Positions 37,639 through 62,449 of a stretch of DNA of 64,000 nucleotides are shown here, piece by piece. Made by a program: the position numbers and the translations under genes. Below the pieces are notes generated by a model. It worked only from the letters and a program-made list of their open reading frames with translations. It had not been told where the DNA came from and ran no database searches. The first letter of the stretch is position 1; every line of letters starts with the position of its first letter. Source of the stretch: Syncephalis plumigaleata (Eukaryota; Zoopagomycota; Zoopagomycetes; Zoopagales; Piptocephalidaceae); NCBI GenBank assembly GCA_025201365.1, contig JAIXMF010000001.1, positions 1,488,001 to 1,552,000 of the forward strand. Direction: 5' to 3'.

Positions 37639-38107
37639 GATGATATTGTTCTGAACCTCATTGATTTACACCTGTATCGTTCATCCTAGCGCACTAGTTG
37701 CCTGTATGATTGCCACTAGCGTTGTGTATTTATAATAAAATGCTTTATAATCATAATCGGGCACTGCTCGTATAATTTATTACTAGAATGTAGAAGTACC
37801 ACGCGTTATCTCAATTCATAACTCGTCTATTCACCGCTATTAATAGAATATATCAGTATCATTTGTATACTTATTGCTTGGTTGATTGTTAATATAGCGC
37901 GAATAAATTTATTAGTACCTTTGCAAGTAGTTTTATTAGCCATTTATTAATAGTGCATTAACGATCACTACCCACCACTTCTTGTTCCTTCTTTTCTCTC
38001 TATAAACAACCATTTATTCAGTAATCTCACTGCTCATTCCTCTACTATTCTATGCAATCCACTATACTCTTCTTGCTCTCTATCTCTTAGTACTATTCAA
38101 TAAAATT
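37639..38107. other. Transition from genes to the repeat block
   Basis: 3' flank of the BTB/CAP-Gly gene, AT-rich and then pyrimidine-rich. From about 38,108 the sequence becomes homologous to 44,981 onward, which marks the start of repeat unit A. Confidence 0.6.
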
Positions 38108-38879
38108 GCTCAACCTTGTTACTATACTCGCTCCTCTTGCTCGATCTCGTTTCTCCCGTTTTACTCTTTACTCTTTACTCGTTCGCTCAATAGTCGCGTA
38201 ACTCGCTGCATACCGTCTTCGGGTACATAGTAATATGGAACATACATTGATCGGTTAATGTTACCTGGTTCTATGCAAGGTGTACTAAAGGTTTATTGTT
38301 ATTAACAAGTGAGTCAAGAACAGACCTCGAGCGTGTCCTATGAGGCTTGACGCTTTCACTTCATCATGACTAACTCCTGTTCTAGAAGGCAGTTTAGCTT
38401 CACGATCTAGCATGCATATATAATACCCGGTCAAAGGGACATTCAGTCGTGTATCGCTCAGTCTACTATTACCTGATCTACGCCGTTTAACGCCACTCTC
38501 TACATATCAACAGACTATGAAACAACGTGTCCATTCTCGACTACGTGTCAATATGCTCCATATATTGACCGGTGCATCCTACGTGAACCTATACCGCGTA
38601 ACTAACCGCATGGTTACATGTACTGCGGTTAATAGTTCCTAATCATTCTGGTTATTGGTGAATACCACCTGCTTTGCACGTTCACCCCTCTCCCTCTCTC
38701 TGTTGTTTACTCTTTCTTTCTCTCTTTCTTCGCCGTTCACTGCTCATATTCGTAATGCTCGCTGTACCTGTTCTTTATTTCTCCTATTCCTTCTCCTTGT
38801 ATGCACTTACCTTTGCTTAACACACTCGCGTACTTGTACTTTCTCCTCTCTCGCTTGTTTATGTTTTACTCGCGTTCGC

Positions 38880-39137
38880 TGTTCACCGCTTCTCGTTGGT
38901 GTCGTTGATCTAACGTTAGTTCGCGTCATCATCTACGCGTTTGCTGTTCACCACTCCTTCTTGTTGTTGTCGTTGATCTAACGGTAGTTCGCGTCATCAT
39001 CTACGCGATTTCTTTACAGCTTCTCGTTGGTGTCGTTGATCTAACGTTAGTTCGTGTCATCATCTACGCGTTTGCTGTTCACCGCTCCTTGTTGTTGTCG
39101 TTGATCTAACGTTAGTTCGCGTCATCATCTACGCGAT
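38880..39137 (+). repeat. 64-bp minisatellite in unit A, 4 units
   Basis: Each unit carries TTGATCTAACGTTAG (or ACGGTAG) followed by a TCATCATCTACGCG segment. The alternating spacer variants contain TTCTCGTTGGTGTCG or TTGTTGTTGTCG. Confidence 0.9.
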
Positions 39138-39855
39138 CTATTCATCCTGCCTGTTGCCCTTACCTCTTTGTAGTTTACGGTGCTTTTCTACGCACGCTCG
39201 CTACGATCGCGCGTTCATACTCACTTTATTCTGCTGCAATCACCTCCCCTTCAGACTGTAGCACTTGTGCACGACAAGACTACCGTGTTGTTCCTGCGAG
39301 TGCCTTACAGCTGTCATTGCGTCATGATCCACTCGCGCGTTTATTCCTTTGTACGTTAACAGTGCTCATCTGCTACTCTTTGTATTGCAATGTATGCTGC
39401 CGTTTGTTTATTAGATTTCTACTGTGCACTCACCACGGGTAGCGCTTGCACGTCTAGGTTATTCTGTATGCTGTTTTGCATACTGTGTACGCTTCAAGTA
39501 AGTTCCGCTTGCTTACCTTTCTATGATCATTACACTCGTATAAGCCATTTATTAATAAAAAGCAATAAAGCTATTAGTAACCTACTAATTGGCCATTAGT
39601 ATGGTATTAATAAAGTGGTAATAAATTACTAATATAGCCATTAGTAAAATTAACAAGGGTTAGCAGCTTAAAACTAGCAAAAATTACTAATGAACCCATT
39701 AATAAATGTTAACAAATTTATTAATAAAAGTTAACAGTTAAAAAATTGCCAATTTAAAACTAGTAAAATATTACTAATGAACCCATTAGTAAAAGTTAAC
39801 AAAAAGTTAACAAATTTATTAACATTTATTAACACCTATCCCCCATTATTAACGG

Positions 39856-39872
39856 CCCTAACCCTAACCCTA
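39856..39872 (+). repeat. Short interstitial telomere-type motif (CCCTAA), unit A
   Basis: CCCTAACCCTAACCCTA, just under three TTAGGG-type units. Flanked on both sides by conserved unit sequence. Confidence 0.8.
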
Positions 39873-40281
39873 TATAGCTATTAATAGAAACGCAGTCACA
39901 GTGCTATTTGTATGGCGCTTTACTTTCCCCCATTAACTATCGTTGTTGTGGTCCAATCTCGCTGTTTGTGTGCTCATTCGACGTATCTCGCTTTTCCGGA
40001 CCAGAATATGTACCTGTTGCCTAAATAAATGACAAATAGGGCGAGTAAAATGTCGATAGTTGTCGTGATTCTTGATTTGGCTGTGCTTTCCACTATCCAT
40101 GTTTTCCTCCCCCGATATCCATCAGATCGGCATGCAGGTGCTACCATTCTGCTGGGCATCACAGGGTGCACAAGTCTACTTATTCGCTAAACCCAGCATA
40201 GCTTAGTAGTACGGCGAGTAAAGCCGCGGAAATCGCCGTGATTCTTGAATTTGTATGGTAGTTTCCCTATAATACCGTGTT

Positions 40282-40476
40282 TCACAATGCTATTGCCATA
40301 ACGCACTTGAAAGCATGCACAAATAGTGCATTTCGCATGTCCAGACCGCAATAGCGAGCTGATTGATATGCGAGTCGGCTACAATCGATGCATTTCCAGG
40401 CAATAAATCGCAAATAGTCTATTTCTCCCATACAAATCGCGTTATTTGGTCGTCCGGTCCTTTTCATTTTGCTCAA
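40282..40476 (-). other. 64-codon open frame conserved in all four A/B units (doubtful gene)
   Basis: An identical 64-residue translation occurs at 40282-40476, 47420-47614 (minus), 51403-51597 and 58481-58675 (plus). A second frame of 65 codons lies about 110 bp downstream in each unit and varies between copies. Composition (Cys-Ile-Asp-Cys, aromatic-rich) matches no family I know. Identity can be explained by recent duplication alone, so coding is not supported. Confidence 0.2.
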
Positions 40477-40956
40477 ATGGCGTTATTTCTCAATGGTAGT
40501 GGCATATTCTGGTCCGGACGGGCCTTCTGACTTCAATAGGTGCAATACTACCTCCAGAAGACCAGAATTGAGCGAGAAAAATGGATATACCAGAAAAATG
40601 ACCTGATTCTCCAAGGGCCCCAATGGGCCATTAACTTTTATTAATAAGTTTGTTAACTTTTATTAGTAATTTTATTAACTTTTTATTAGTAATTACTAGC
40701 ATTTATTAGCCAGACAAGGGTCCGGTCCCCTCAAGAGCCGCAGAAGAGCCCAAATAGCTATTAACTTTTATTAATAAATTCATTAACTTTTTATTAGTAA
40801 TTTTATTAACTTTTATTAACCAGAAAATGACCTGGTCCTCCATGAGTCGCAATGGTCCCCCATTGGCCTATTAACTTTTATTAATAAACTTGTTAACTTT
40901 TGTTAACCTTTGAGTCATGAGCTTTCATTAGAAATTTGTTAACTTTTGTTAACCAT

Positions 40957-43900
40957 TGTGTTGTAAGTATCATGAGCTTCACTAATCATCATCTATAGGA
41001 ACATTCTATTCACATAACTCGAATATCGGAATTTATATTCATTAACAAATACTCTCATTAATTACGATATCACCGATATCATTACTAATATCATTCATAA
41101 TATTCGTCTATATAAGCTAGCATATTTTATTATAATAAAAATCAATGCTTCTAATATATATCCTCCTACATACTAGTGTTTATTTATCTTATTGCGTACG
41201 CTAACTGAGCATTCATTTCTACACATTGATTAGTAGCTTTCATTAGTAAATCACCTATCTAGTAATGAGGAGATGATAATGAAGCTTAGTAATAAAGAAT
41301 TAAGAAGACATCACTAATGGCATATTAATAAATCTATTGACATTTATTAATGCTGTTCCTTATGATTTCCTCCTATCTTTCCCTTCCATTTTGTTAATGC
41401 TCCCATTAGTAGGTGTTGTTAGCCTTTATTGACCAATGATGACTATGCATAACACTAAGGACAATAGGACAATTCGAATGAATTCATTAATAAATTTATG
41501 TATTCTTATTAACATTTACTAGTAACAATGACTAATGACAATAATGATACACATGAATGATGATGGCCATGCACCTTGCTCTCATGACACTAGCTCCATT
41601 AATGCTCCTCCTATATTTTTCTAATGTATACCATCATGTTCCTCATTACAATACGCGCCGAATGAATATAATTATAATGATGTAACTTTATTATTCAATT
41701 CATTATACATTATTGCACCCATTCAATGTCATTATACTCATTTCTTCACTAATCCCGCTCATTCCTTGCTCGCTATATTCATTACTCTCGTTCACTCGCT
41801 CTACTTATTCCTTGCGCGTTCTACTCATTCCAGTCATTACGCTTACAGTCTACTCATTTCCCTTTAGATCTACTCACTCCTCTCGCACGATCTACTCGTT
41901 GTTCATGCACTTTACTCTCTATACTTGTTCCTCTTGCACGATCTACTTCTTCCTCTTACTTCCTCGCTCCATCTGCTCCATCTTCTTACGTTCGTCACGC
42001 GTTCTATCCGTTCCACTTACTTGCCTCGCTTGATCTACTCGTTCTACGCATTCCTCGTTCGATCTACTCACTATACTTATTTCCCTTGCACGATCTACTC
42101 GTTCGTCACGCGCGTTATACTCATTCTAGTCATTGCGTTTATTTTTACTCGTTCTTTGTGCGTCTACTCACTACGTTCACTTCTCTCGCTCGGATCTAGC
42201 CACTATACTCATTACGCTCGCACATTCGTCTTACCTTCCTCGCTTGATCTACTTGTTTCTCGCACGATCTTGTCATTATACTCACTGCTTTCGCGTTCTA
42301 CTCACTTCTCTCTCTGTCTCAAGTGGCTCATTGCTCGTGCGTCCTACTCCTTATGCTCACTCATCTCGTCCGATCACTCGTTTCCCGCTCAACCTACTCG
42401 CTCGCTGCACGCCATACTTGTTTCTCTTACTCGTTCCACTTATTACTCGTGCGCTATACCCACTATACTCACTCATCTCGCTCGATCTTGTTCCTCTTAC
42501 TCATATACTCGTTGCTCACGCGCTTTACTCACTCCTTCCGCTCGATCTCGTTCGTTGCGCGCTTTACTCACATTCCTCTCGCGTTCTACTCGCTCCTCTT
42601 GTACGATCTATTCACTATACTCGTTTCTCGCGCGTTCTATTCGTCCCACTTACGTTCGTCGCGCGTTCTAGTCTCTCCTCTTGCGCGTTCTATTCTTCTG
42701 TCGTGCGCTTTACTCACTCCTCTTGCACGATCTCGTTCGTTGCGTGCTTTACTTACATTCCTCGCGTTCGATCTACTCACTATACTCGTTCCTCGCGCGT
42801 TGTAGTCACTATACTTACTCCTCTGGCTCGATCTACTCATTACTCGCGCGTTCTAGTCGTAATACTTGTTCCTCTCGCATTCTAGTCATTTCTCGTGCTC
42901 GATTAACTCGTTCCTCGTGCGCTATACTCGCTATACTCACTCCTTTCTCTTGATCTACTCACTCTTCTCGCGTTTTACTCACTCCACTTATTCCTCGCCC
43001 AATCTTGTTACTATACTCACTCATCTCGCTCGCGCTACTCATTCACTTGCGCGTCCCAGTCCTTCCTCTTGTCACTTTACTCACTTCTCTTACTCGTTCT
43101 GGTCATTCCTCGCTTGCCCTACTTGTTTCTCGCACGAACTTGTCTCTGTACTCACTCCTCATGCGTTCTACTAATTACTCTTTCGTTCGGCGCGCGAGCT
43201 ACTCACTTCTCCTGCACTTCTATTTATTCATTGCGCGCTTTACTCCTTATTCTTACTCGTTTTACTCCTACTACTCACTCCACTTGCATGGGCTTGCCAC
43301 TATACTCCTTCCTCTCGCACTATCTACTCACTATACTCGTTTCTCGCGTGTTCTACTCACTTCTCTTGCACGTTCTAGTCCTTCCTCGCGCTTTCTACTC
43401 ACTCCTCTTGTATGATCTGCTCACTATACTCACTCCTCGTGCGTCCAACTTGTTTCTCACTTATTCCTCGCTCGATCGTGTCACTATGCTTACTCCTTTT
43501 GCTCGATCTACTCGTTCGTCGCGTTCCGCTCATTATATTCAATATGCTTCCTATTGCATACAAACTATTAAAATTATCGTTCAACATATATTCTCTTACT
43601 ACACATGTATACACTCGTTACTATTAACTATTCAAGCTACTACGTCCACTATTTCTCTTGCACGCTCTACTCATTACTCGCCCGTTCTCGTCATAATACT
43701 TATTCCTCTTGCTCGATCTCGTTCGTTGCGCGCTTTACTCACATTTCTCAAGTGTTCTACTCGCTCCTCTTGTACGATCTACTCCCTTCTCTCGCTCGAT
43801 CTCGTTCTTCGTGCGCTATACTCGCTATACTCACTCCTTTCTCTCGAGCTACTCGCTCTTCTCGCGCTTTACTCATCATACTTATTCCTCACGTGTTGTG

Positions 43901-44980
43901 GTCATTCTACTCGTTCGTCGCTCTATCTGCTCATTCTTCTTACGTTCATCGTGCGTTCTATTCGTTCCACTTACTTTTCTAGCTTGATCTACTCATTATA
44001 TTCGTTCTTCGCGCGCTATAATCACTATACTTATCTCCCTTGCACGATCTACTCGTTCTTCGTGCGCGTTATACTCATTCTAGTCATTGCGTTTACATTC
44101 TACTCGTTATTCGTGTGTTCTAATCACCACGTTCACTCCTCTCGGTCGAATCTACTCACTATACTCAATACGCTCGCATATTCGTCTTACATTCCTCGCG
44201 CGCTCTATTCATTCCTAATTACTCGTGCGCTATACTCCCTATACTTATTCCTCTCGCGTTCTACTCACTTCTCTTACTCATTCCTTTTACGTTCCTCGCG
44301 CACTTCACCCATTTCTCTACCCCTTCGTTGCACACGGTCTACTCACTATGCTCCTTACTCCTGCTTTATATTCTCGGTGCTTATGTAGCGGTTGTATCCA
44401 TACTTCTTTTAACACTTACCGTGGCGCTAATACTGAACTTCATATATAGTACCACTTCTGTAAATACGCTTTCCACTGCATGCAAACTAATAAAAATTAC
44501 CGTTCAATATATATTATTTTATTATAAAGTGTATGCGCTCGTTACTATGTACTAATCAAGCTGCTACAGCAATAATTCCTCTTGCACGATCTACTCATTC
44601 CTCTCGCGTTCTAGTCATAATACTAACTTCTCTCGCTTGATCTCGTCCCTCGTGCGTTCAAGTTGCTATACTCATTCCTCTTGCACGATCTACTCCCTAG
44701 ACTCATTATACTCTTTCCTCGCACGATCTACTCGTTGCTCATGCGCCCCACTCACTATACTCACTTCTCCCGCTCGATCTACTCATTACTCGCTCGATCT
44801 CGTCACTATACTCACTTCTCTCGCTCGATCTACTCATTACTCGTGCGTTCTACTCATCCCCCTCGCTCGATCTCGTCACTCCTCTCGCGTTCTACTCATT
44901 CCTTGCTATACTCGTTTCCCGCTCGATCTACTCATTCCTCTCGCGTTCTACTCGTTTGTTGCACGCTATAGTCGTTTCTT
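40957..44980 (+). repeat. Spacer X: AT-rich head and pyrimidine-rich degenerate satellite
   Basis: 40,957-41,700 is AT-rich. 41,700-44,980 consists of degenerate CTACTC/CGTTC/CTCGCG-type units with very few purine runs on the plus strand. All three plus frames stay open for long stretches, giving Ser/Tyr/Leu/Arg-rich open frames of up to 439 codons. The same composition in every frame indicates non-coding repeat rather than genes. Two diverged copies of a 120-bp non-pyrimidine motif lie at about 43,535-43,655 and 44,450-44,575. Confidence 0.85.
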
Positions 44981-45754
44981 GCTCGACCTTGTTACTATAT
45001 TCACTCCTCTTGCTCGATCTCGTTTCTCCCGTTTTACTCTTTACTCTTTACTCGTTCGCTCAATAGTCGCGTAACTCGCTGCATACCGTCTTCGGGTACA
45101 TAGTAATATGGAACATACATTGATCGGTTAATGTTACCTGGTTCTACGCAAGGTGTACTAAAGGTTTATTGCTATTAACGAGTAAGTCTAGAACAGACCT
45201 CGAGCGTGGCCTATGAGCCTTGACGCTTTCACTTCATCATGACTAACTCCTGTTCTAGAAGGCAACTTAGCTTCACGATCCAGCATGCATATATAATACC
45301 CGGTCAAAGGGACATTCAGTCGTGTATCGCTCAGTCTACTATTACCTGATCTACGCCGTCTAACGCCACTCTCTACATATCAACAGGCTATGAAACAGCG
45401 TGTGCCATTCTCGACTACGTGCTTATATGCTCCATATATTGACTGGTGCATCCTACGTGGACCTATACCGCGTAACTAACTCGCATGGTTACATGTACCT
45501 GGTGGTTAATAGTTCCTAATCATTCATGGTTATTGGTGAATACCACCTGCTTTGCACGTTCACCCCTCTCCCTCTCTCTGTTGTTTACTCTTTCTTTCTC
45601 TCTTTCTTCGCCGTTCACTGCTCATATTCGTAATGCTCGCTGTACCTGTTCTTTATTTCTCCTATTCCTTCTCCTTGTATGCACTTACCTTTGCTTAACA
45701 CACTCGCGTACTTGTACTTTCTCCTCTCTCGCTTGTTTATGTTTTACTCGCGTT

Positions 45755-46270
45755 CGCTGTTCACCGCTTCTCGTTGGTGTCGTTGATCTAACGGTGTTCG
45801 TGTCATCATCTACGCGTTTGCTGTTCACAGCTTCTCGTTGGTGTCGTTGATCTAACGTTAGTTCGCGTCATCATCTACGCGATTTCTTTACAGCTTCTCG
45901 TTGGTGTCGTTGATCTAACGTTAGTTCGCGTCATCATCTACGCGATTTCTTTACAGCTTCTCGTTGGTGTCGTTGATCTAACGTTAGTTCGTGTCATCAT
46001 CTACGCGTTTGCTGTTCACCACTCCTTCTTGTTGTTGTCGTTGATCTAACGGTAGATTGCGTCATCATCTACGCGTTTGCTGTTCACCACTCCTTCTTGT
46101 TGTTGTCGTTGATCTAACGGTAGTTCGCGTCATCATCTACGCGATTTCTTTACAGCTTCTCGTTGGTGTCGTTGATCTAACGTTAGTTCGTGTCATCATC
46201 TACGCGTTTGCTGTTCACAGCTTCTCGTTGGTGTCGTTGATCTAACGGTAGATTGCGTCATCATCTACGC
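45755..46270 (+). repeat. 64-bp minisatellite in unit B, 8 units
   Basis: Same unit as in A. Two adjacent TTGTTGTTGTCG-type units near 46,020-46,140 form a local duplication not present in B'. Confidence 0.9.
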
Positions 46271-46993
46271 GTTCTATTCATCCTGCCTGTTGCCCTTACC
46301 TCTTTGTAGTTTGCGGTGCTTTTCTACGCACGCTCGCTACGATCGCGCGTTCATACTCACGTTATTCTGCTGTAATCACCTCCCCTTCAGACTGTAGCAC
46401 TTGTGCACGACAAGACTACCGTGTTGTTCCTGCGAGTGCCTTACAGCTGTCATTGCGTCATGATCCACTCGCGCGTTTATTCCTTTGTACGTTAACAGTG
46501 CTCATCTGCTACTCTTTGTATTGCAATGTATGCTGCTGTCTGTTTATTAGATTTCTACTGTGCACTCACCACGGGTAGCGCTTGCACGTCTAACGCTATT
46601 CTGTATGCTGTTTTGCATACTGTGTACGCTTCAAGTAAGTTCCGCTTGCTTACCTTTCTATGATCATTACACTCGTATAAGCCATTTATTAATAAAAAGC
46701 AATAAAGCTATTAGTACACCTACTAATTGGTCATTAGTATGGTATTAATAAAGTGGTAATAAATTACTAATATAGCCATTAGTAAAATTAACAAGGGTTA
46801 GCAGCTTAAAACTAGCAAAAATTACTAATGAACCCATTAATAAATGTTAACAAATTTATTAATAAAAGTTAACAGTTAAAAAATTGCCAATTTAAAACTA
46901 GTAAAATATTACTAATGAACCCATTAGTAAAAGTTAACAAAAAGTTAACAAATTTATTAACATTTATTAACACCTATCCCCCATTATTAACGG

Positions 46994-47010
46994 CCCTAAC
47001 CCTAACCCTA
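46994..47010 (+). repeat. Short interstitial telomere-type motif, unit B
   Basis: Same 17-base motif and same flanks as in unit A. Confidence 0.8.
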
Positions 47011-48200
47011 TATAGCTATTAATAGAAACGCAGTCACAGTGCTATTTGTATGGCGCTTTACTTTCCCCCATTAACTATCGTTGTTGTGGTCCAATCTCGC
47101 TGTTTATGCACTCATTCGACGTATCTCGCTTTTCCGGACCAGAATATGTACCTGTTGCCTAAATAAATGACAAATAGGGCGAGTAAAATGCCGATAGTTG
47201 TCGTGATTCTTGATTTGGCTGTGCTTTCCAGTAGCCGTGCTTTCCTCCCCCAATATCCATCAGATCGGCATGCGGATGCTACCATTCTACTGGGCATCAC
47301 AGAGTGCACAAGTCTACTTATTCGCTAAACCCAGCATAGCTTAGTAGTACGGCGAGTAAAGCCGCGGAAATCGCCGTGATTCTTGAATTTGTATGGTAGT
47401 TTCCCTATAATACCGTGTTTCACAATGCTATTGCCATAACGCACTTGAAAGCATGCACAAATAGTGCATTTCGCATGTCCAGACCGCAATAGCGAGCTGA
47501 TTGATATGCGAGTCGGCTACAATCGATGCATTTCCAGGCAATAAATCGCAAATAGTCTATTTCTCCCATACAAATCGCGTTATTTGGTCGTCCGGTCCTT
47601 TTCATTTTGCTCAAATGGCGTTATTTCTCAATGGTAGTGGCATATTCTGGTCCGGACGGGCCTTCTGACTTCAATAGGTGCAATACTACCTCCAGAAGAC
47701 CAGAATTGAGCGAGAAAAATGGATATACCAGAAAAATGACCTGATTCTCCAAGGGCCCCAATGGGCCATTAACTTTTATTAATAAGTTTGTTAACTTTTA
47801 TTAGTAATTTTATTAACTTTTTATTAGTAATTCACTAGCATTTATTAGCCAGACAAGGGTCCGGTCCCCTCAAGAGCCGCAGAAGAGCCCAAATAGCTAT
47901 TAACTTTTATTAATAAATTCATTAACTTTTTATTAGTAATTTTATTAACTTTTATTAACCAGAAAATGACCTGGTCCTCCATGAGTCGCAATGGTCCCCC
48001 ATTGGCCTATTAACTTTTATTAATAAACTTGTTAACTTTTGTTAACCTTTGAGTCATGAGTTTTCATTAGAAATTTGTTAACTTTTGTTAACCATCGATT
48101 CATATAGGGGCTCTCGACACCCCATGGCACCCCCTGATACCCCCCGAGGGCCGGCTGAAGCTGGCTTCAAGGGTCCCGGTCCCTAGTGGGCCCCCTATTT

Positions 48201-50822
48201 GTAAAAATTCGAATTTCACTCCTAAAATTCAGGTAAAAATATATGTTGCTCAGCCGCACATTCTGGACTATATATATATTTATTTGAATTTTAGGAGCGA
48301 AATTTGAATTTATAAAAATCAAAGGTTCAGTGGGGACCGGCCGAGAGCCTGGGCTCTTGACCTCAAGATGACCAAACTTGACCGATTTTGACCAGTTAGA
48401 GTGAAGGGTCCGGGCTCTTCACTGACCCCCCTTGAGCTCTTAATTTTTATAAATTCAAATATAGCCTGTAAAATCCAGGTAATAATATATTCTAGTCCAG
48501 AATTGATGGCTGAGCACAAACATATTTTTATTTGGATTTTAGGAGCGATATTTGAATTTATAAAAATAGAAGACTCGGGAGGGCCCGTATAATTGGACAA
48601 AATCGGCTCAAATTGGTCATCTTGGGCCAAGAGCCCGGGCTCTCTGCCGGTCCCCAGTAAGCCCTCTATTTTTATAAATTCGAATTTCGCTCCTAAAATC
48701 CAGGTAAAAATATATATAGTCCAGAATGTGCGGCTGAGCAACATATATTTTTATCTGGATTTTAGGAGTGAAATTCGAATTTTTACAAATAGGGGGCCCA
48801 CTAGGGACCGGGACCTTTGAAGCCAGCTTCAGCCGGCTCTAGCCGGCTCTCAAGGGGTGTCAAGGGGTGTAAAGGGGGCATTGACCGTCACTGGCCTTTA
48901 TTGACCTTCATTAGCTTTCATTAGTAAAGTTGTTAACTATTGTTAACTTTTTATTACCTTTTGTTAACTTTGATTAATGCCTCTAAAACCCCCATGGTAC
49001 CCCTTTGACACCTTTGATGTAATCATGACCATTAGTAAAAGTTAATAAAAGTTAATAAAAAATTAACAAAAGTTAACAAATTTATTAATTAGAATTAATG
49101 AAGGCTAGTAAAGAACAAGTACACCCTTGACGCCAATGGTACCCCTTTGACACCCCTTGAGAGCCGGCTAGAGTCGGCTGAAGCTGGCTTCAAAGGTCCC
49201 GGTCCCTAGTGGGCCCCCTATTTGTAAAAATTCGAATTTCACTCCTAAAATTCAGGTAAAAATATATGTTGCTCAGCCGCACATTCTGGACTATATATAT
49301 TTTTACCTGGATTTTAGGAGCGAAATTCGAATTTATAAAAATAGAGGGCTTACTGGGGACCGGCAGAGAGCCCGGGCTCTTGGCCCAAGATGACCAATTT
49401 GAGCCGATTTTGTCCAATTATACGGGCCCTCCCGAGTCTTCTATTTTTATAAATTCAAATATCGCTCCTAAAATCCAAATAAAAATATGTTTGTGCTCAG
49501 CCATCAATTCTGGACTAGAATATATTATTACCTGGATTTTACAGGCTATATTTGAATTTATAAAAATTAAGAGCTCAAGGGGGTCAGTGAAGAGCCCGGA
49601 CCCTTCACTCTAACTGGTCAAAATCGGTCAAGTTTGGTCATCTTGAGGTCAAGAGCCCGGGCTCTCGGCCGGTCCCCACTGAACCTTTGATTTTTATAAA
49701 TTCAAATTTCGCTCCTAAAATTCAAATAAATATATATATAGTCCAGAATGTGCGGCTGAGCAACATATATTTTTACCTGAATTTTAGGAGTGAAATTCGA
49801 ATTTTTACAAATAGGGGGCCCACTAGGGACCGGGACCTTTGAAGCCAGCTTCAGCCGACTCTAGCCGGCTCTCAAGGGGTGTCAAAGGGGTACCATTGGC
49901 GTCAAGGGTGTACTTGTTCTTTACTAGCCTTCATTAATTCTAATTAATAAATTTGTTAACTTTTGTTAATTTTTTATTAACTTTTATTAACTTTTACTAA
50001 TGGTCATGATTACATCAAAGGTGTCAAAGGGGTACCATGGGGGTTTTAGAGGCATTAATCAAAGTTAACAAAAGGTAATAAAAAGTTAACAATAGTTAAC
50101 AACTTTACTAATGAAAGCTAATGAAGGTCAATAAAGGCCAGTGACGGTCAATGCCCCCTTTACACCCCTTGACACCCCTTGAGAGCCGGCTAGAGCCGGC
50201 TGAAGCTGGCTTCAAAGGTCCCGGTCCCTAGTGGGCCCCCTATTTGTAAAAATTCGAATTTCACTCCTAAAATCCAGATAAAAATATATGTTGCTCAGCC
50301 GCACATTCTGGACTATATATATTTTTACCTGGATTTTAGGAGCGAAATTCGAATTTATAAAAATAGAGGGCTTACTGGGGACCGGCAGAGAGCCCGGGCT
50401 CTTGACCCAAAATGACCATTTTGACCAATTATACGGTCCCATTTGAGCCCCCTATTTTTATAAATTCGAATTTTGCTCCTAAAATCCAGGTGAAAATATA
50501 TGTTGCTCAGCCGCACATTCTGGACTATATATATTTTTACCTGGATTTTAGGAGCGAAATTCGAATTTATAAAAATAGAGGGCTCAAGGGGACCGGGGAA
50601 GAGCTGGCACAATTGGCCCTAACTGGTCAAAATCGGTCAAGTTTGGTCATCTTGAGGTCAAGAGCCCGGGCTCTCGGCCGGTCCCCACTGAACCTTTGAT
50701 TTTTATAAATTCGAATTTCGCTCCTAAAATTCAAGTAAATATATATATAGTCCAGAATGTGCGGCTGAGCAACATATATTTTCACCTGGATTTTAGGAGC
50801 AAAATTCGAATTTATAAAAATA
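48201..50822. repeat. Nine copies of a 120-bp hairpin repeat
   Basis: Copies at about 48,201-48,320, 48,441-48,568, 48,668-48,790, 49,221-49,342, 49,441-49,569, 49,688-49,811, 50,240-50,364, 50,453-50,577 and 50,699-50,822. Each has arms of about 40-50 bp built from AAATTCGAATTTCGCTCC, then TAAAATCCAGGTAAAAATAT and their reverse complement. The roughly 25-base asymmetric loop contains GCTCAGCCGCACATTCTGGAC, or ATCAATTCTGGAC in copies 2 and 5. Confidence 0.9.
49441..49569. repeat. Central hairpin at the palindrome axis
   Basis: Fifth of nine hairpins. Its loop (about 49,490-49,515) contains the symmetry point 49,508.5 computed from two independent exact pairs (47,420-47,614 with 51,403-51,597, and 48,092-48,101 with 50,916-50,925). 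Confidence 0.85.
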
Positions 50823-52006
50823 GAGGGCTCAAATGGGACCCGGTCCCTTGAAGCCAGCTTCAGCCGGCCCTCGGGGGTATCAGGGGGTGCCATGGGGTGT
50901 CGAGAGCCCCTATATGAATCGATGGTTAACAAAAGTTAACAAATTTCTAATGAAAACTCATGACTCAAAGGTTAACAAAAGTTAACAAGTTTATTAATAA
51001 AAGTTAATAGGCCAATGGGGGACCATTGCGACTCATGGAGGACCAGGTCATTTTCTGGTTAATAAAAGTTAATAAAATTACTAATAAAAAGTTAATGAAT
51101 TTATTAATAAAAGTTAATAGCTATTTGGGCTCTTCTGCGGCTCTTGAGGGGACCGGACCCTTGTCTGGCTAATAAATGCTAGTGAATTACTAATAAAAAG
51201 TTAATAAAATTACTAATAAAAGTTAACAAACTTATTAATAAAAGTTAATGGCCCATTGGGGCCCTTGGAGAATCAGGTCATTTTTCTGGTATATCCATTT
51301 TTCTCGCTCAATTCTGGTCTTCTGGAGGTAGTATTGCACCTATTGAAGTCAGAAGGCCCGTCCGGACCAGAATATGCCACTACCATTGAGAAATAACGCC
51401 ATTTGAGCAAAATGAAAAGGACCGGACGACCAAATAACGCGATTTGTATGGGAGAAATAGACTATTTGCGATTTATTGCCTGGAAATGCATCGATTGTAG
51501 CCGACTCGCATATCAATCAGCTCGCTATTGCGGTCTGGACATGCGAAATGCACTATTTGTGCATGCTTTCAAGTGCGTTATGGCAATAGCATTGTGAAAC
51601 ACGGTATTATAGGGAAACTACCATACAAATTCAAGAATCACGGCGATTTCCGCGGCTTTACTCGCCGTACTACTAAGCTATGCTGGGTTTAGCGAATAAG
51701 TAGACTTGTGCACTCTGTGATGCCCAGTAGAATGGTAGCACCTGCATGCCGATCTGATGGATATTGGGGGAGGAAAGCACGGCTACTGGAAAGCACAGCC
51801 AAATCAAGAATCACGACAACTATCGGCATTTTACTCGCCCTATTTGTCATTTATTTAGGCAACAGGTACATATTCTGGTCCGGAAAAGCGAGATACGTCG
51901 AATGAGTGCATAAACAGCGAGATTGGACCACAACAACGATAGTTAATGGGGGAAAGTAAAGCGCCATACAAATAGCACTGTGACTGCGTTTCTATTAATA
52001 GCTATA

Positions 52007-52023
52007 TAGGGTTAGGGTTAGGG
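52007..52023 (-). repeat. Short interstitial telomere-type motif, unit B'
   Basis: TAGGGTTAGGGTTAGGG on the plus strand; inverted counterpart of 46,994-47,010. Confidence 0.8.
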
Positions 52024-52741
52024 CCGTTAATAATGGGGGATAGGTGTTAATAAATGTTAATAAATTTGTTAACTTTTTGTTAACTTTTACTAATGGGTTC
52101 ATTAGTAATATTTTACTAGTTTTAAATTGGCAATTTTTTAACTGTTAACTTTTATTAATAAATTTGTTAACATTTATTAATGGGTTCATTAGTAATTTTT
52201 GCTAGTTTTAAGCTGCTAACCCTTGTTAATTTTACTAATGGCTATATTAGTAATTTATTACCACTTTATTAATACCATACTAATGACCAATTAGTAGGTG
52301 TACTAATAGCTTTATTGCTTTTTATTAATAAATGGCTTATACGAGTGTAATGATCATAGAAAGGTAAGCAAGCGGAACTTACTTGAAGCGTACACAGTAT
52401 GCAAAACAGCATACAGAATAGCGTTAGACGTGCAAGCGCTACCCGTGGTGAGTGCACAGTAGAAATCTAATAAACAGACAGCAGCATACATTGCAATACA
52501 AAGAGTAGCAGATGAGCACTGTTAACGTACAAAGGAATAAACGCGCGAGTGGATCATGACGCAATGACAGCTGTAAGGCACTCGCAGGAACAACACGGTA
52601 GTCTTGTCGTGCACAAGTGCTACAGTCTGAAGGGGAGGTGATTACAGCAGAATAACGTGAGTATGAACGCGCGATCGTAGCGAGCGTGCGTAGAAAAGCA
52701 CCGCAAACTACAAAGAGGTAAGGGCAACAGGCAGGATGAAT

Positions 52742-53212
52742 AGAACGCGTAGATGATGACGCAATCTACCGTTAGATCAACGACACCAACGAGAAGCTGT
52801 GAACAGCAAACGCGTAGATGATGACACGAACTAACGTTAGATCAACGACACCAACGAGAAGCTGTAAAGAAATCGCGTAGATGATGACGCGAACTACCGT
52901 TAGATCAACGACAACAACAAGAAGGAGTGGTGAACAGCAAACGCGTAGATGATGACACGAACTAACGTTAGATCAACGACACCAACGAGAAGCTGTAAAG
53001 AAATCGCGTAGATGATGACGCGAACTAACGTTAGATCAACGACACCAACGAGAAGCTGTAAAGAAATCGCGTAGATGATGACGCGAACTAACGTTAGATC
53101 AACGACACCAACGAGAAGCTGTGAACAGCAAACGCGTAGATGATGACACGAACACCGTTAGATCAACGACACCAACGAGAAGCGGTGAACAGCGAACGCG
53201 AGTAAAACATAA
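52742..53212 (-). repeat. 64-bp minisatellite in unit B', 7 units
   Basis: Inverted counterpart of the B array. It contains a single TTGTTGTTGTCG-type unit near 52,900. Confidence 0.9.
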
Positions 53213-53968
53213 ACAAGCGAGAGAGGAGAAAGTACAAGTACGCGAGTGTGTTAAGCAAAGGTAAGTGCATACAAGGAGAAGGAATAGGAGAAATAAAGAA
53301 CAGGTACAGCGAGCATTACGAATATGAGCAGTGAACGGCGAAGAAAGAGAGAAAGAAAGAGTAAACAACAGAGAGAGGGAGAGGGGTGAACGTGCAAAGC
53401 AGGTGGTATTCACCAATAACCATGAATGATTAGGAACTATTAACCACCAGGTACATGTAACCATGCGAGTTAGTTACGCGGTATAGGTCCACGTAGGATG
53501 CACCAGTCAATATATGGAGCATATAAGCACGTAGTCGAGAATGGCACACGCTGTTTCATAGCCTGTTGATATGTAGAGAGTGGCGTTAGACGGCGTAGAT
53601 CAGGTAATAGTAGACTGAGCGATACACGACTGAATGTCCCTTTGACCGGGTATTATATATGCATGCTGGATCGTGAAGCTAAGTTGCCTTCTAGAACAGG
53701 AGTTAGTCATGATGAAGTGAAAGCGTCAAGGCTCATAGGCCACGCTCGAGGTCTGTTCTAGACTTACTCGTTAATAGCAATAAACCTTTAGTACACCTTG
53801 CGTAGAACCAGGTAACATTAACCGATCAATGTATGTTCCATATTACTATGTACCCGAAGACGGTATGCAGCGAGTTACGCGACTATTGAGCGAACGAGTA
53901 AAGAGTAAAGAGTAAAACGGGAGAAACGAGATCGAGCAAGAGGAGTGAATATAGTAACAAGGTCGAGC

Positions 53969-56900
53969 AAGAAACGACTATAGCGTGCAACAAACGAGTA
54001 GAACGCGAGAGGAATGAGTAGATCGAGCGGGAAACGAGTATAGCAAGGAATGAGTAGAACGCGAGAGGAGTGACGAGATCGAGCGAGGGGGATGAGTAGA
54101 ACGCACGAGTAATGAGTAGATCGAGCGAGAGAAGTGAGTATAGTGACGAGATCGAGCGAGTAATGAGTAGATCGAGCGGGAGAAGTGAGTATAGTGAGTG
54201 GGGCGCATGAGCAACGAGTAGATCGTGCGAGGAAAGAGTATAATGAGTCTAGGGAGTAGATCGTGCAAGAGGAATGAGTATAGCAACTTGAACGCACGAG
54301 GGACGAGATCAAGCGAGAGAAGTTAGTATTATGACTAGAACGCGAGAGGAATGAGTAGATCGTGCAAGAGGAATTATTGCTGTAGCAGCTTGATTAGTAC
54401 ATAGTAACGAGCGCATACACTTTATAATAAAATAATATATATTGAACGGTAATTTTTATTAGTTTGCATGCAGTGGAAAGCGTATTTACAGAAGTGGTAC
54501 TATATATGAAGTTCAGTATTAGCGCCACGGTAAGTGTTAAAAGAAGTATGGATACAACCGCTACATAAGCACCGAGAATATAAAGCAGGAGTAAGGAGCA
54601 TAGTGAGTAGACCGTGTGCAACGAAGGGGTAGAGAAATGGGTGAAGTGCGCGAGGAACGTAAAAGGAATGAGTAAGAGAAGTGAGTAGAACGCGAGAGGA
54701 ATAAGTATAGGGAGTATAGCGCACGAGTAATTAGGAATGAATAGAGCGCGCGAGGAATGTAAGACGAATATGCGAGCGTATTGAGTATAGTGAGTAGATT
54801 CGACCGAGAGGAGTGAACGTGGTGATTAGAACACACGAATAACGAGTAGAATGTAAACGCAATGACTAGAATGAGTATAACGCGCACGAAGAACGAGTAG
54901 ATCGTGCAAGGGAGATAAGTATAGTGATTATAGCGCGCGAAGAACGAATATAATGAGTAGATCAAGCTAGAAAAGTAAGTGGAACGAATAGAACGCACGA
55001 TGAACGTAAGAAGAATGAGCAGATAGAGCGACGAACGAGTAGAATGACCACAACACGTGAGGAATAAGTATGATGAGTAAAGCGCGAGAAGAGCGAGTAG
55101 CTCGAGAGAAAGGAGTGAGTATAGCGAGTATAGCGCACGAAGAACGAGATCGAGCGAGAGAAGGGAGTAGATCGTACAAGAGGAGCGAGTAGAACACTTG
55201 AGAAATGTGAGTAAAGCGCGCAACGAACGAGATCGAGCAAGAGGAATAAGTATTATGACGAGAACGGGCGAGTAATGAGTAGAGCGTGCAAGAGAAATAG
55301 TGGACGTAGTAGCTTGAATAGTTAATAGTAACGAGTGTATACATGTGTAGTAAGAGAATATATGTTGAACGATAATTTTAATAGTTTGTATGCAATAGGA
55401 AGCATATTGAATATAATGAGCGGAACGCGACGAACGAGTAGATCGAGCAAAAGGAGTAAGCATAGTGACACGATCGAGCGAGGAATAAGTGAGAAACAAG
55501 TTGGACGCACGAGGAGTGAGTATAGTGAGCAGATCATACAAGAGGAGTGAGTAGAAAGCGCGAGGAAGGACTAGAACGTGCAAGAGAAGTGAGTAGAACA
55601 CGCGAGAAACGAGTATAGTGAGTAGATAGTGCGAGAGGAAGGAGTATAGTGGCAAGCCCATGCAAGTGGAGTGAGTAGTAGGAGTAAAACGAGTAAGAAT
55701 AAGGAGTAAAGCGCGCAATGAATAAATAGAAGTGCAGGAGAAGTGAGTAGCTCGCGCGCCGAACGAAAGAGTAATTAGTAGAACGCATGAGGAGTGAGTA
55801 CAGAGACAAGTTCGTGCGAGAAACAAGTAGGGCAAGCGAGGAATGACCAGAACGAGTAAGAGAAGTGAGTAAAGTGACAAGAGGAAGGACTGGGACGCGC
55901 AAGTGAATGAGTAGCGCGAGCGAGATGAGTGAGTATAGTAACAAGATTGGGCGAGGAATAAGTGGAGTGAGTAAAACGCGAGAAGAGTGAGTAGATCAAG
56001 AGAAAGGAGTGAGTATAGCGAGTATAGCGCACGAGGAACGAGTTAATCGAGCACGAGAAATGACTAGAATGCGAGAGGAACAAGTATTACGACTAGAACG
56101 CGCGAGTAATGAGTAGATCGAGCCAGAGGAGTAAGTATAGTGACTACAACGCGCGAGGAACGAGTATAGTGAGTAGATCGAACGCGAGGAATGTAAGTAA
56201 AGCACGCAACGAACGAGATCGTGCAAGAGGAGTGAGTAAAGCGCACGACAGAAGAATAGAACGCGCAAGAGGAGAGACTAGAACGCGCGACGAACGTAAG
56301 TGGGACGAATAGAACGCGCGAGAAACGAGTATAGTGAATAGATCGTACAAGAGGAGCGAGTAGAACGCGAGAGGAATGTGAGTAAAGCGCGCAACGAACG
56401 AGATCGAGCGGAAGGAGTGAGTAAAGCGCGTGAGCAACGAGTATATGAGTAAGAGGAACAAGATCGAGCGAGATGAGTGAGTATAGTGGGTATAGCGCAC
56501 GAGTAATAAGTGGAACGAGTAAGAGAAACAAGTATGGCGTGCAGCGAGCGAGTAGGTTGAGCGGGAAACGAGTGATCGGACGAGATGAGTGAGCATAAGG
56601 AGTAGGACGCACGAGCAATGAGCCACTTGAGACAGAGAGAGAAGTGAGTAGAACGCGAAAGCAGTGAGTATAATGACAAGATCGTGCGAGAAACAAGTAG
56701 ATCAAGCGAGGAAGGTAAGACGAATGTGCGAGCGTAATGAGTATAGTGGCTAGATCCGAGCGAGAGAAGTGAACGTAGTGAGTAGACGCACAAAGAACGA
56801 GTAAAAATAAACGCAATGACTAGAATGAGTATAACGCGCGTGACGAACGAGTAGATCGTGCAAGGGAAATAAGTATAGTGAGTAGATCGAACGAGGAATG

Positions 56901-57999
56901 CGTAGAACGAGTAGATCAAGCGAGGCAAGTAAGTGGAACGGATAGAACGCGTGACGAACGTAAGAAGATGGAGCAGATGGAGCGAGGAAGTAAGAGGAAG
57001 AAGTAGATCGTGCAAGAGGAACAAGTATAGAGAGTAAAGTGCATGAACAACGAGTAGATCGTGCGAGAGGAGTGAGTAGATCTAAAGGGAAATGAGTAGA
57101 CTGTAAGCGTAATGACTGGAATGAGTAGAACGCGCAAGGAATAAGTAGAGCGAGTGAACGAGAGTAATGAATATAGCGAGCAAGGAATGAGCGGGATTAG
57201 TGAAGAAATGAGTATAATGACATTGAATGGGTGCAATAATGTATAATGAATTGAATAATAAAGTTACATCATTATAATTATATTCATTCGGCGCGTATTG
57301 TAATGAGGAACATGATGGTATACATTAGAAAAATATAGGAGGAGCATTAATGGAGCTAGTGTCATGAGAGCAAGGTGCATGGCCATCATCATTCATGTGT
57401 ATCATTATTGTCATTAGTCATTGTTACTAGTAAATGTTAATAAGAATACATAAATTTATTAATGAATTCATTCGAATTGTCCTATTGTCCTTAGTGTTAT
57501 GCATAGTCATCATTGGTCAATAAAGGCTAACAACACCTACTAATGGGAGCATTAACAAAATGGAAGGGAAAGATAGGAGGAAATCATAAGGAACAGCATT
57601 AATAAATGTCAATAGATTTATTAATATGCCATTAGTGATGTCTTCTTAATTCTTTATTACTAAGCTTCATTATCATCTCCTCATTACTAGATAGGTGATT
57701 TACTAATGAAAGCTACTAATCAATGTGTAGAAATGAATGCTCAGTTAGCGTACGCAATAAGATAAATAAGACACTAGTATGTAGGAGGAGTATATATTAG
57801 AAGCATTGATTGTTTTATTATAATAAAATATGCTAGCTTATATAGACGAATATTATTGAATGATATTAGTAATGATATCGGGTGATATCGTAATTAATGA
57901 GAGTATTTGTTAATGAATATAAATCTCCGATATTCGAGTTATGTGAATAGAATGTTCCTATAGATGATGATTAGTGAAGCTCATGATACTTACAACACA
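53969..57999 (-). repeat. Spacer X' (inverted copy of X)
   Basis: Reverse complement of 40,957-44,980, purine-rich on the plus strand. A few single-base and short indel differences from X were seen in the AT-rich part (57,780-57,930 versus 40,990-41,150). Confidence 0.9.
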
Positions 58000-59686
58000 A
58001 TGGTTAACAAAAGTTAACAAATTTCTAATGAAAGCTCATGACTCAAAGGTTAACAAAAGTTAACAAGTTTATTAATAAAAGTTAATAGGCCAATGGGGGA
58101 CCATTGCGACTCATGGAGGACCAGGTCATTTTCTGGTTAATAAAAGTTAATAAAATTACTAATAAAAAGTTAATGAATTTATTAATAAAAGTTAATAGCT
58201 ATTTGGGCTCTTCTGCGGCTCTTGAGGGGACCGGACCCTTGTCTGGCTAATAAATGCTAGTGAATTACTAATAAAAAGTTAATAAAATTACTAATAAAAG
58301 TTAACAAACTTATTAATAAAAGTTAATGGCCCATTGGGGCCCTTGGAGAATCAGGTCATTTTTCTGGTATATCCATTTTTCTCGCTCAATTCTGGTCTTC
58401 TGGAGGTAGTATTGCACCTATTGAAGTCAGAAGGCCCGTCCGGACCAGAATATGCCACTACCATTGAGAAATAACGCCATTTGAGCAAAATGAAAAGGAC
58501 CGGACGACCAAATAACGCGATTTGTATGGGAGAAATAGACTATTTGCGATTTATTGCCTGGAAATGCATCGATTGTAGCCGACTCGCATATCAATCAGCT
58601 CGCTATTGCGGTCTGGACATGCGAAATGCACTATTTGTGCATGCTTTCAAGTGCGTTATGGCAATAGCATTGTGAAACACGGTATTATAGGGAAACTACC
58701 ATACAAATTCAAGAATCACGGCGATTTCCGCGGCTTTACTCGCCGTACTACTAAGCTATGCTGGGTTTAGCGAATAAGTAGACTTGTGCACTCTGTGATG
58801 CCCAGTAGAATGGTAGCATCCGCATGCCGATCTGATGGATATTGGGGGAGGAAAGCACGGCTACTGGAAAGCACAGCCAAATCAAGAATCACGACAACTA
58901 TCGGCATTTTACTCGCCCTATTTGTCATTTATTTAGGCAACAGGTACATATTCTGGTCCGGAAAAGCGAGATACGTCGAATGAGTGCATAAACAGCGAGA
59001 TTGGACCACAACAACGATAGTTAATGGGGGAAAGTAAAGCGCCATACAAATAGCACTGTGACTGCGTTTCTATTAATAGCTATATAGGGTTAGGGTTAGG
59101 GCCGTTAATAATGGGGGATAGGTGTTAATAAATGTTAATAAATTTGTTAACTTTTTGTTAACTTTTACTAATGGGTTCATTAGTAATATTTTACTAGTTT
59201 TAAATTGGCAATTTTTTAACTGTTAACATTTATTAATGGGTTCATTAGTAATTTTTTGCTAGTTTTAAGCTGCTAACCCTTGTTAATTTTACTAAGGGCT
59301 ATATTAATAATTTGCTAGTTTTTATTAATACACAGTTAATAAAAACACTTACAAATGTACTAATAGCTTTATTACCAATTTACTAACAATTTATTAATAC
59401 CATACTAATGGCGTCATTCCTTTTTACTAATAAATGGCTTATACGAGTGTAATGATCATAGAAAGGTAAGCAAGCGGAACTTACTTGAAGCGTACACAGT
59501 ATGCAAAACAGCATACAGAATAACCTAGACGTGCAAGCGCTACCCGTGGTGAGTGCACAGTAGAAATCTAATAAACAAACGGCAGCATACATTGCAATAC
59601 AAAGAGTAGCAGATGAGCACTGTTAACGTACAAAGGAATAAACGCGCGAGTGGATCATGACGCAATGACAGCTGTAGGGCACCCGC
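58000..59686 (-). repeat. Repeat unit A' (truncated inverted copy of A)
   Basis: Matches the inner 1.7 kb of A and stops at about 59,686, inside the segment that in A lies just left of GCGAGTGCC. The minisatellite and leader are missing. A 130-bp patch around 59,280-59,420 differs from the other three copies. GGGTTA motif at 59,085-59,101. Confidence 0.9.
59085..59101 (-). repeat. Short interstitial telomere-type motif, unit A'
   Basis: Inverted counterpart of 39,856-39,872. Confidence 0.8.
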
Positions 59687-60030: not shown

Positions 60031-62449
60031 CTATATTTCCGGCATGTAGAGATCGCTATCACGAATCACTTCACGGCCATCCCACGTAATGGACACCCAT
60101 TCCTTAGCTTCGAGCCATAGCCACATCTTCAGGAATAACTCATCGGTAGCGCCCAACTCGCGTAGGCCGGCGAACACGCGCTTACCCGCTTGTTGTCGTC
60201 CAAAGTCGCGTAATGCGGCCAATGAAACACTGGCGAGATCCAGGTTGGGATCCAATTGACGACCAATACCTTCCAATATTAGCAGCGACAATACGACATT
60301 GGCAAAGTCGCCCTCCAGACGTACGTGATGCTCTCGCACCATGCGCATTACATCCATCAGTATATCGCCAATGGAGACTTTGCCTAACGAGAATGTAATA
60401 TCGCGTAGTTGCATAATTAGATTTTGCATTTTATGCGCAAACACCTCCGGTTCAACCACGAGCTCTGGCGTCCTACAACGCTCTACCATAAGGCGTCCAG
60501 CGGTATACCTAGCGATTATCGTACATTCATTAGCACGTTAATTATTCGCCGTCATTGCGACATACCCATCGAATGTGACGACAGCTTTGAATAGGTCAAT
60601 AAAGTTTCGACGATTCGTATCGTTTAACTCGGCGATTAGCCCTGCGTCGAGGAACACTAGTCGAGGACGGTAGCCCTCGGAGAATAATGCCATTAATTCA
60701 TTCTTCCATGCGAGTTCATCCGTTTCAACCGCACTCAACCGATCGATAACCGTTGGATCTGGACGATGTGGTGGCGGGATACCCTGCGTGAGCGAAGACC
60801 AAATACGTTTAATCATATCGCGTAAGCTGGGGCGTGCAAATCGAACAAGGATGTTACCCGGATGCAGATCGGCATGGATAAAGTTATCCAGAATAAGCAT
60901 ATGCTAAGTATAGTAGTAGTAATCGTAATCGTAATAATACTAATAATTAGTGCTCCTTTACAGCTCAATTGGCTATGCCACCACTGAAACTTACCAGGAA
61001 TGCGTCAATACCTAATGATGTTAAGCTAATTAATAAATGTCCGTTACTTATTAATTAATCGTTTAGTCGCTTACCAATACCGGACATAATTTTATCGTAC
61101 ACAGTACCGTTAGCGTTTAAGAATCGCTTTATCGGTATGGCATAAATGTATTCTTCTACGAGTACATCGGATGTACCATGAAATATAGGCCGTGGAAATG
61201 CAACGGTATAACAGTAGCGGAAGCCATGCTTGAACTTTTCCAAATTCTTAGCCTCGTGACGTAGATCAAGCTGCGAGTTCATCATTTCGCCAAACACGCG
61301 TACCTCATCGGGTAGCGATAGCCATTTCATACCGGGTATAATATCGATTACCCGTGCGAATGCATTCATGATTTTAAGATCGCGCGCTATCTTCTTGTCG
61401 ATACCTGGATGCACCACCTTGATGGCTACCATATTATGTGGATAGGATACAGTGTCATTTGGATCAGATGGCTGCGGTGGTAATAGATGCGGATGTAGTT
61501 TGGCACGGTACACCTGAGCAATGGCGCCCACACCTACTGGCGTTTCGTCGAACCATTCAAACAACGATTCCATGGTGCGACCGCCGGTGGCGCGTTCGAT
61601 TGCACGACGTGTATAACGGAAAGCGTGCGGTCTATTACTAGCGTGTAATCGACTCAGACTATGGCAAAACTCGGTGGGGAATATATCAACGCGCGTGGCA
61701 GCCCATTGCGCCAACTACAAAGGTAATAATGCCAACAACGGTGGTTAGCGACGACGAGCGCGTTCTCTTCTTTTCCTTCATAGCGCATAGTAATGAACAT
61801 ACCTTAATAAAGGACGGTCCTGCATATTCCATTTGTCGTGCCAGCAAATCATACCACCATACGTGCCAACTCTTGTTTAACGATGATACAGGTTGTGCCT
61901 CGGTACATACAAGTACGGGAATGGTGACGATACAAGGTAGGAATATAATAACCAGCTGTAGAAAACGCCATCCCGTCATTAGCGGCTCAATGAATATAGC
62001 GTGTAGACGGTGGCCTAATCTACACAGCAGCGATCGTGTCTCCTTGTCGACATTTGCGTTACTGAGTATTATGTTGGATTCAGCTGAAGGCGTAGTAGCA
62101 GTAGTAGATGCTTTATCATACGTCAAGCACCTATGGTCATACCCGTCATTAGACAGCGACTAACGCGGTATTGGGATTGCTGTCCAACTCGAGCTACAAC
62201 AAGTGAATGTAGCGTACGCCAATGAGATGACGATGATCGTGCAGCAGCAGCAGCAGCAGCTTTACTGATCAGTCGATTGCTGCGACGACATAGATTAGTC
62301 GAGTATGATGCGTTATTAATTGGTTGCAATAATACTTTGCGAGAATGTTGAACAAAACTACCACCCAACGCTCCCTGTTGCACTAGCGCGGTAGCATTAC
62401 TGAACACATGCCGAGACAATGCTCGTCGTTGTAACACGGCAGATAACAT
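60031..62449 (-). CDS. Mitochondrial UbiB/ADCK2-type atypical kinase, 5 exons
   Basis: Exons on the minus strand: 62449-61803, 61714-61075, 61011-60995 (17 nt), 60903-60566 and 60508-60031. The N-terminus is Arg/Ser/Ala-rich without acidic residues, like a mitochondrial presequence. UbiB motifs in order: AGPSFIKLAQWAATRVDIFP (the KxGQ region), GVGAIAQVYRAKL (Ala-rich loop), MVAIKVVHPG (Lys), FIHADLHPGNILV (catalytic loop) and LVFLDAGL (DFG-like). The spacing and WAATR-x-DIFP context fit ADCK2-like members of the coenzyme-Q-linked ABC1 family. The conserved Gly of KxGQ is Ala here. The phase changes once near 62142. One missing C in the CCC run (GGG on the coding strand) restores a 706-residue protein, so an indel error is favoured. 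Divergent from the next gene. Confidence 0.88.
60995..61011 (-). other. 17-nt microexon of the ADCK-like gene
   Basis: Flanked by ATTAG acceptor and GTAAGT donor on the minus strand. It encodes GIDAFL with one base from the previous exon and joins SGI to HMLILDNFIHADLHPGN in frame, just as UbiB family spacing requires. Confidence 0.75.

Follow-up and report, generated by a model that had tools for sequence, protein, structure and literature searches.

A candidate regional centromere with a motif-bearing hairpin core in the early-diverging fungus Syncephalis plumigaleata

Here we describe a gene-free inverted-repeat block in the genome of Syncephalis plumigaleata (Zoopagomycota), which we interpret as a candidate regional centromere. 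The block lies within a stretch of 64,000 nucleotides (the window, C1:1488001-1552000) of a 32.64-Mb assembly in 383 contigs, which are named here C1, C2 and so on. We hold, with a probability of about 0.85, that it is a regional centromere functioning in the manner of yeast inverted-repeat centromeres, although its core is made of motif-bearing hairpins. This is the best reading because the core is found at what appear to be four loci, its flanks are shared between haplotypes, its palindromic arms are homogenised and the genome encodes CENP-A. The first-pass annotation of this DNA had proposed a candidate regional centromere, and the anatomy of the genome supports the proposal, short of proof, through the four core loci, the mid-contig position of the C1 block and the CENP-A gene and putative CENP-C-like gene.

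Self-BLAST of the window revealed an inverted repeat spanning positions 38106-59686. A left arm of 10.0 kb (38106-48095) and an inverted right arm of 8.8 kb (50922-59686) surround a core of 2.83 kb (48096-50921), and the main arm-to-arm match aligns 39604-46208 with 59331-52744 (6.6 kb, 98.9% identity, BLAST E value of 0). The inner block of the left arm proved to be a second copy, in direct orientation, of the outer repeat A, with 46004-48095 matching 38871-40956 at 97.9% identity and 44979-46007 matching 38106-39135 at 95.5%. X, a pyrimidine-rich sequence (69% C+T), lies between the two copies, and its first ~0.27 kb (40959-41223) is a solo long terminal repeat (LTR) of a copia retrotransposon. 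The order of the block is A-X-A' / core / A'-X-A. Its arms are unequal, the outer right A lacking its first ~1.2 kb and stopping at 59686. These results bear out the 2.8-kb core and the inverted orientation of the arms given in the first-pass annotation, and they revise its account of two arms of 10.2 kb each in the order A-X-B: the arms differ in length, and B is A again. The core itself is a self-complementary hairpin array and not unique sequence.

The C1 core aligns with its own reverse complement over 2,826 bp at 90.7% identity. Among the seven cores that were found in the genome, four are self-complementary over their whole length in a single alignment (C1 as above, C223 at 96.7%, C236 at 97.4% and C372 at 98.6%), and in those of C2, C13 and C283 the self-complementarity is broken into pieces. 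Using a scan for stem pairs that was blind to the loop, we found 57 hairpins in the cores. Of these, 37 carry a motif loop, exact in each, and the other 20, none of them in C1 or C283, carry a second, related loop. The motif, AAAATATATGTTGCTCAGCCGCACATTCTGGACTATATATAT (42 bp), occurs four to seven times per core in both orientations and is identical across the 37 copies, which were chosen by exact match to a 24-mer, so that the invariance of 24 of its 42 columns follows from the choice. Two results serve as checks on this: the stem scan, which picked hairpins independently of the loop, and the genome-wide search described below, in which no match had 1-3 mismatches. When 160 columns around the motif were compared in the same copies, 69 were invariant, with a longest invariant run of 6. 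A looser scan within the cores detected four decayed motif copies, each mismatched at 4 of 21 bases; they lie in C1 and C283. One example, 48190-48330, was folded as single-stranded DNA and gave a long stem with the motif at its tip (-25.9 kcal/mol, z -6.2). As an alternative to selection on the motif, the hairpin tip may be a centre of gene conversion.

We found that the core is confined to a small set of contigs. BLAST with the core matched C1, C2, C13, C223, C236, C283 and C372 among the best 40 of 42 matches. A genome-wide search with the core 24-mer, in which up to three mismatches were allowed, returned 37 matches, 19 of them forward and 18 reverse and none with a mismatch, and its backwards control returned 0. 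The matches form seven clusters, one on each of the contigs just named and on no other. In six of the seven clusters the core lies between inverted A copies; C283 begins inside the core. Three of the contigs, C283, C372 and C236, look like second haplotypes of C1, C2 and C223, respectively. The flank of C283 matches the right flank of the window at 98.9% over 3.9 kb of unique sequence, and that of C372 matches C2:97339-100346 at 98% over 3.0 kb. C236, which is all block and no flank, looks like the second haplotype of C223 by its arm alone (98.0% over 7.6 kb). Subtracting these three contigs from the seven clusters leaves four core loci, on contigs of 3.05, 1.95, 0.84 and 0.75 Mb, with C13 having no partner. 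At both loci where a flank could be compared (2/2), the core stands at the shared flank in the two haplotypes. Parts of long contigs, among them histone, CENP-C-like and core loci, recur on several short ones, so that the strain has the look of a diploid or a heterokaryon, and its haplotype pairs offer a natural experiment on how palindromic arms stay alike.

The block is not restricted to contig ends, a pattern that the first-pass annotation had set against a centromere: on C1 it is internal, at 1.526-1.548 Mb of 3,046,566 bp (3.05 Mb), between unique flanks that differ left and right. The blocks also vary in build. That of C1 measures ~21.6 kb and that of C2 ~39 kb, the latter with a right arm that includes a tandem A-X unit of 11.2 kb with an intact copia pol open reading frame (ORF) of 1,328 amino acids. 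The C13 block contains a gag ORF with Retrotrans_gag and Ty3_capsid matches.

The two arms exchange sequence. The solo copia LTR sits at the identical base of both C1 arms with the target duplication CATTG, and C283, which has the right arm only, carries an empty site with a single CATTG. An LTR at the identical base in both arms and an empty site in the other haplotype show arm-to-arm exchange. The simplest account would be one insertion after the haplotypes parted, later copied to the other arm; loss of the LTR in C283 by conversion is possible. Without the LTR, X is identical between the C1 arms over 3,751 bp, and X of other loci matches in patches only. We further compared 24 copies of a 1.2-kb stretch of A, leaving out one partial C223 copy and counting C223/C236 pairs as different loci. 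Mean identity was 98.44% within a contig (24 pairs), 97.42% between haplotypes (18 pairs) and 96.41% between other core contigs (148 pairs, C223/C236 included). A core inversion between haplotypes was considered and set aside: the C1 and C283 cores align at 95.1% inverted and 89.4% direct, over different stretches, and a better inverted alignment is not decisive for palindromic cores. Copia was not supported as a centromere-specific retrotransposon, since the 14 LTR matches in the genome include some on C24, C373 and C119 and at C1:1.35 and 1.42 Mb.

Searches for kinetochore genes were consistent with a CENP-A-based centromere. Matches to PF00125 include an intron-split histone H3 variant on C57, whose exons, joined by eye, have Schizosaccharomyces pombe cnp1 as best PDB match (140.9 bits versus 126.6 for H3). 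The alignment revealed a longer loop and a Trp shared with cnp1, which we take to be marks of CENP-A, and the genome encodes this protein. A CENP-C cupin match was found at C1:763 kb, with a copy on C224; the frames around it, read by eye, give VRRSTRRRIPPLAYWRNER, presumably the CENP-C motif, plus cupin pieces, so that a CENP-C-like gene may be present on a weak cupin match. Piwi-domain (Argonaute) genes were detected on C112/C108 and C223.

Several observations weigh against the block being a centromere. Repeat A is dispersed: among the best 40 of 54 A5 matches, 19 copies lie in core-bearing blocks and 21 outside, and the A3 piece is likewise scattered in at least 40 copies (best 40 of 50 candidates). 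These and the other repeat counts, taken from the best 12 of 158 matches for the window and 40 of 132 for X, are lower bounds. X-like DNA outside the core blocks was found near the ends of C1, C13, C46, C57, C79, C113 and C362, at some internal places, and in the telomere-bearing C316. A and X were both ruled out as centromere markers because they are dispersed. Of the first-pass expectation that the same blocks would recur once per chromosome, what stands is the part that concerns the core, as far as the assembly allows; A and X do not conform to it. Some large contigs, C112 (2.35 Mb) among them, have no match to the core 24-mer. Two of the four core loci are close to a contig start, that of C13 at 15.7-18.3 kb, where the contig start is inside the block, and that of C2 at 67-70 kb of 837 kb. 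Neither terminal 300 bp of C1 contains a telomere array, so that C1 may fall short of telomere-to-telomere and a count of one core per chromosome is provisional. The core is not AT-rich, its GC content being 0.415 compared with 0.43 in the first 38 kb of the window. The cupin match scored 24 bits against a Pfam cut-off of 29, and the loose cupin search also matched 8 of 14 prokaryote control genomes, none above the cut-off. Finally, assembly or polishing may have raised the apparent identity of the arms.

The repeats showed some further features of their own. A 12-bp box, CCCTAACCCTAA, occurs in all four A3 copies of the window (39856, 46994, 52012 and 59090). It adjoins the A piece 39880-40640, which is 96-100% identical to the window, compared with 91-100% for A5 (40 scored copies each). 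At C223:360639-363957 a ~265-bp piece from the start of A3 is tandemly repeated in the left arm, with more copies than in the right arm. At C1:2171501-2180500 repeat A is part of a ~4.17-kb tandem with ORFs that by eye resemble protein-kinase-family fragments, and related units occur on C79, C113 and C362. At the telomere end of C316, TTAGGC repeats grade into TTAGGG and X-like DNA lies ~1-4 kb inside.

Three other explanations were weighed. The block might be subtelomere-like heterochromatin, that is, subtelomeric repeats that perhaps mark an ancient end-to-end fusion and have no kinetochore role. Evidence in this direction comes from the X-like DNA near the ends of several contigs and in C316, which alone was matched in a telomere search (24-bp TTAGGG), from the CCCTAACCCTAA box in four of four window copies of A and from the position of C13 and C2, two of the four core loci, near a contig start. 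However, the search with the core 24-mer gave no match in C316, C46, C57, C79, C113 or C362 or at those ends of C1 and C13 (right end) where X lies; telomere-like sequence in the window is limited to the 12-bp CCCTAA boxes and forms no array; and the C1 block sits mid-contig between different unique flanks. We regard this explanation as improbable. It is somewhat harder still to credit that the block is a large palindromic element, selfish or mobile, which has reached several sites in the genome. Such an element should have fixed ends, but the C1 block starts at the beginning of A5 on the left and ends inside A3 on the right, and block length differs almost twofold between C1 and C2. The three scanned ORFs of the window copy gave no Pfam match, there is one core cluster per contig, and the flank is common to two haplotypes at 2/2 comparable loci, although the blocks do include retrotransposons (the intact pol ORF of C2 and the gag ORF of C13) and A is dispersed. 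Near-perfect palindromes are known assembly artefacts, and yet an assembly or amplification artefact such as fold-back of long reads is very improbable here, the A copies of the two arms differing by ~1-4%, the arms being unequal, the flanks differing by side and the plan being repeated on other contigs, where X matches in patches at only 75-95%.

The regional-centromere reading was then set against known systems. Of the features of the inverted-repeat type represented by S. pombe and Candida tropicalis, the block has inverted arms around a core, and its arms are homogenised within a centromere; its cores are sets of palindromes and not non-repetitive DNA. We liken it to this type by its working and do not count it as a member, the non-repetitive core being absent. 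In S. pombe, inverted outer-repeat arms surround a largely non-repetitive core, repeat number varies and related repeats occur at other silent regions. The S. plumigaleata block is similar in its inverted arms, variable repeat number and related repeats elsewhere, a likeness judged by architecture, and it differs in its repetitive hairpin core with a tip motif; to our knowledge S. pombe has no conserved hairpin-tip motif. According to the accessible part of the published account, C. tropicalis centromeres have a non-repetitive mid core, and their inverted repeats resemble each other more within one centromere than from one centromere to another (PMC4741521). Within the limits of that excerpt, the likeness lies in a core of a few kilobases, inverted flanking repeats, arms closest within a centromere and sequence common to centromeres (PMC4741521). 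The mid core given there is non-repetitive and the arms measure 2-5 kb (PMC4741521), whereas in S. plumigaleata palindromic hairpins with a conserved motif make up the core, and the arms, of ~10 kb or more, consist of A-X units and include retrotransposons.

Centromeres described for early-diverging fungi are, in the accessible parts of the relevant papers, those of Mucor and its kin, without CENP-A (PMC9089191, PMC7385547, PMC12925627), and the Mucor core, of ~1 kb, carries a 41-bp motif (PMC9089191, PMC12925627). As far as these excerpts go, S. plumigaleata shares with Mucor its early-diverging position, a conserved core motif of ~40 bp (likened by length and place) and gene-free flanks bearing transposable elements (PMC9089191, PMC7385547, PMC12925627). 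It differs from the Mucor arrangement of a ~1-kb core, a 41-bp motif, an AT-rich region and no CENP-A in its CENP-A gene and in a motif present 4-7 times per core in both orientations (PMC9089191, PMC7385547, PMC12925627). The absence of CENP-A belongs to the Mucor mosaic type, and here a CENP-A gene is present. In the open literature searched, judged by title or start of abstract, we found no centromere description for the Zoopagomycota lineage, which agrees with the earlier claim that this architecture is undescribed for it.

What the DNA itself shows is cores at what appear to be four loci, hairpin-forming potential, a conserved motif and arm-to-arm exchange. On the regional-centromere reading, the ~2.8-kb hairpin core would be the assembly site of CENP-A nucleosomes and, via CENP-C, of the kinetochore, and the A-X-A arms would form a pericentromere silenced by heterochromatin. 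RNA interference may contribute to this silencing, as Argonaute genes are present, and the 42-bp motif may be read by a protein or by a cruciform-dependent step. A more specific version holds that the centromere is specified by sequence, with the hairpin-tip motif, recognised either as a cruciform or through a protein that binds its DNA, directing where CENP-A is placed. It would join a point-centromere-like motif to fission-yeast-like inverted arms, and we consider it doubtful, the more so for the four decayed motif copies and the second class of hairpin loop. If the regional-centromere reading is true, the inverted-repeat architecture arose, or persisted, far outside the yeasts, in a CENP-A-bearing early-diverging fungus. 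It has long been debated whether regional centromeres are placed with the help of DNA sequence or of non-B DNA structure, and the hairpin-tip motif makes this question testable.

Table 1. Components of the inverted-repeat block and its right-hand neighbour, in window positions
Feature	Position	Strand	Basis or remark
Repeat A, outer left copy (A5 38106-38870, A3 38871-40956)	38106..40956	+	self-BLAST; dispersed repeat
Solo Ty1/copia LTR, left arm; 5-bp target duplication CATTG at 40954-40958 and 41224-41228	40959..41223	+	empty site in C283
X, pyrimidine-rich block, left arm (LTR excluded)	41224..44978	+	skews, composition; 41228-44978 at 100% in both C1 arms
Repeat A', inner left copy, family and direction of outer A	44979..48095	+	self-BLAST
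Core: self-complementary hairpin array, about three ~750-bp palindromic units with ~270-bp spacers	48096..50921	.	self-comparison, stem scan
42-bp motif, hairpin tip	48236..48277	+	24-mer search; fold of 48190-48330
42-bp motif	48710..48751	-	24-mer search
42-bp motif	49259..49300	+	24-mer search
42-bp motif	49732..49773	-	24-mer search
42-bp motif	50281..50322	+	24-mer search
42-bp motif	50493..50534	+	24-mer search
42-bp motif	50741..50782	-	24-mer search
Repeat A', inner right copy	50922..53970	-	self-BLAST
X, right arm (LTR excluded)	53971..57725	-	self-BLAST
Solo copia LTR, right arm, arm position as on left to the base	57726..57997	-	arm and haplotype comparison
Repeat A, outer right copy, truncated (lacks A5 and the initial ~425 bp of A3)	58000..59686	-	self-BLAST
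First gene right of block, ABC1 atypical kinase, exons	60031..61714	-	ORF 61055-61714 = PF03109; ORF 60031-60489; both ORFs also in C283

No credible gene was seen between about 37.6 and 60.0 kb, and the first-pass description of a gene-free block with genic flanks held. In all, 33 ORFs of at least 80 amino acids overlap 37.6-60.5 kb, one of them being the start of the right flanking gene (60031-60489). The call rests on Pfam scanning of 3 of the 33, without intron-aware gene prediction; these three, the largest of the left arm and low-complexity readings of X, gave no match, and no tRNA or Rfam matches were found inside the block. On the left, Pfam matches identified kinesin, Cdc20-like and Exo_endo_phos proteins, the Cdc20-like match (168.6 bits) falling below the family cut-off of 200, and on the right the ABC1 kinase gene (PF03109). 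Also on the left, a reading that by eye resembles CAP-Gly stops near 37.64 kb. The Cdc20-like gene (ORFs 9783-11299) is bracketed by a separate 1.3-kb inverted repeat (6131-7457 and 11413-12739), 99.3% identical, to which copies on C79 and C113 are related.

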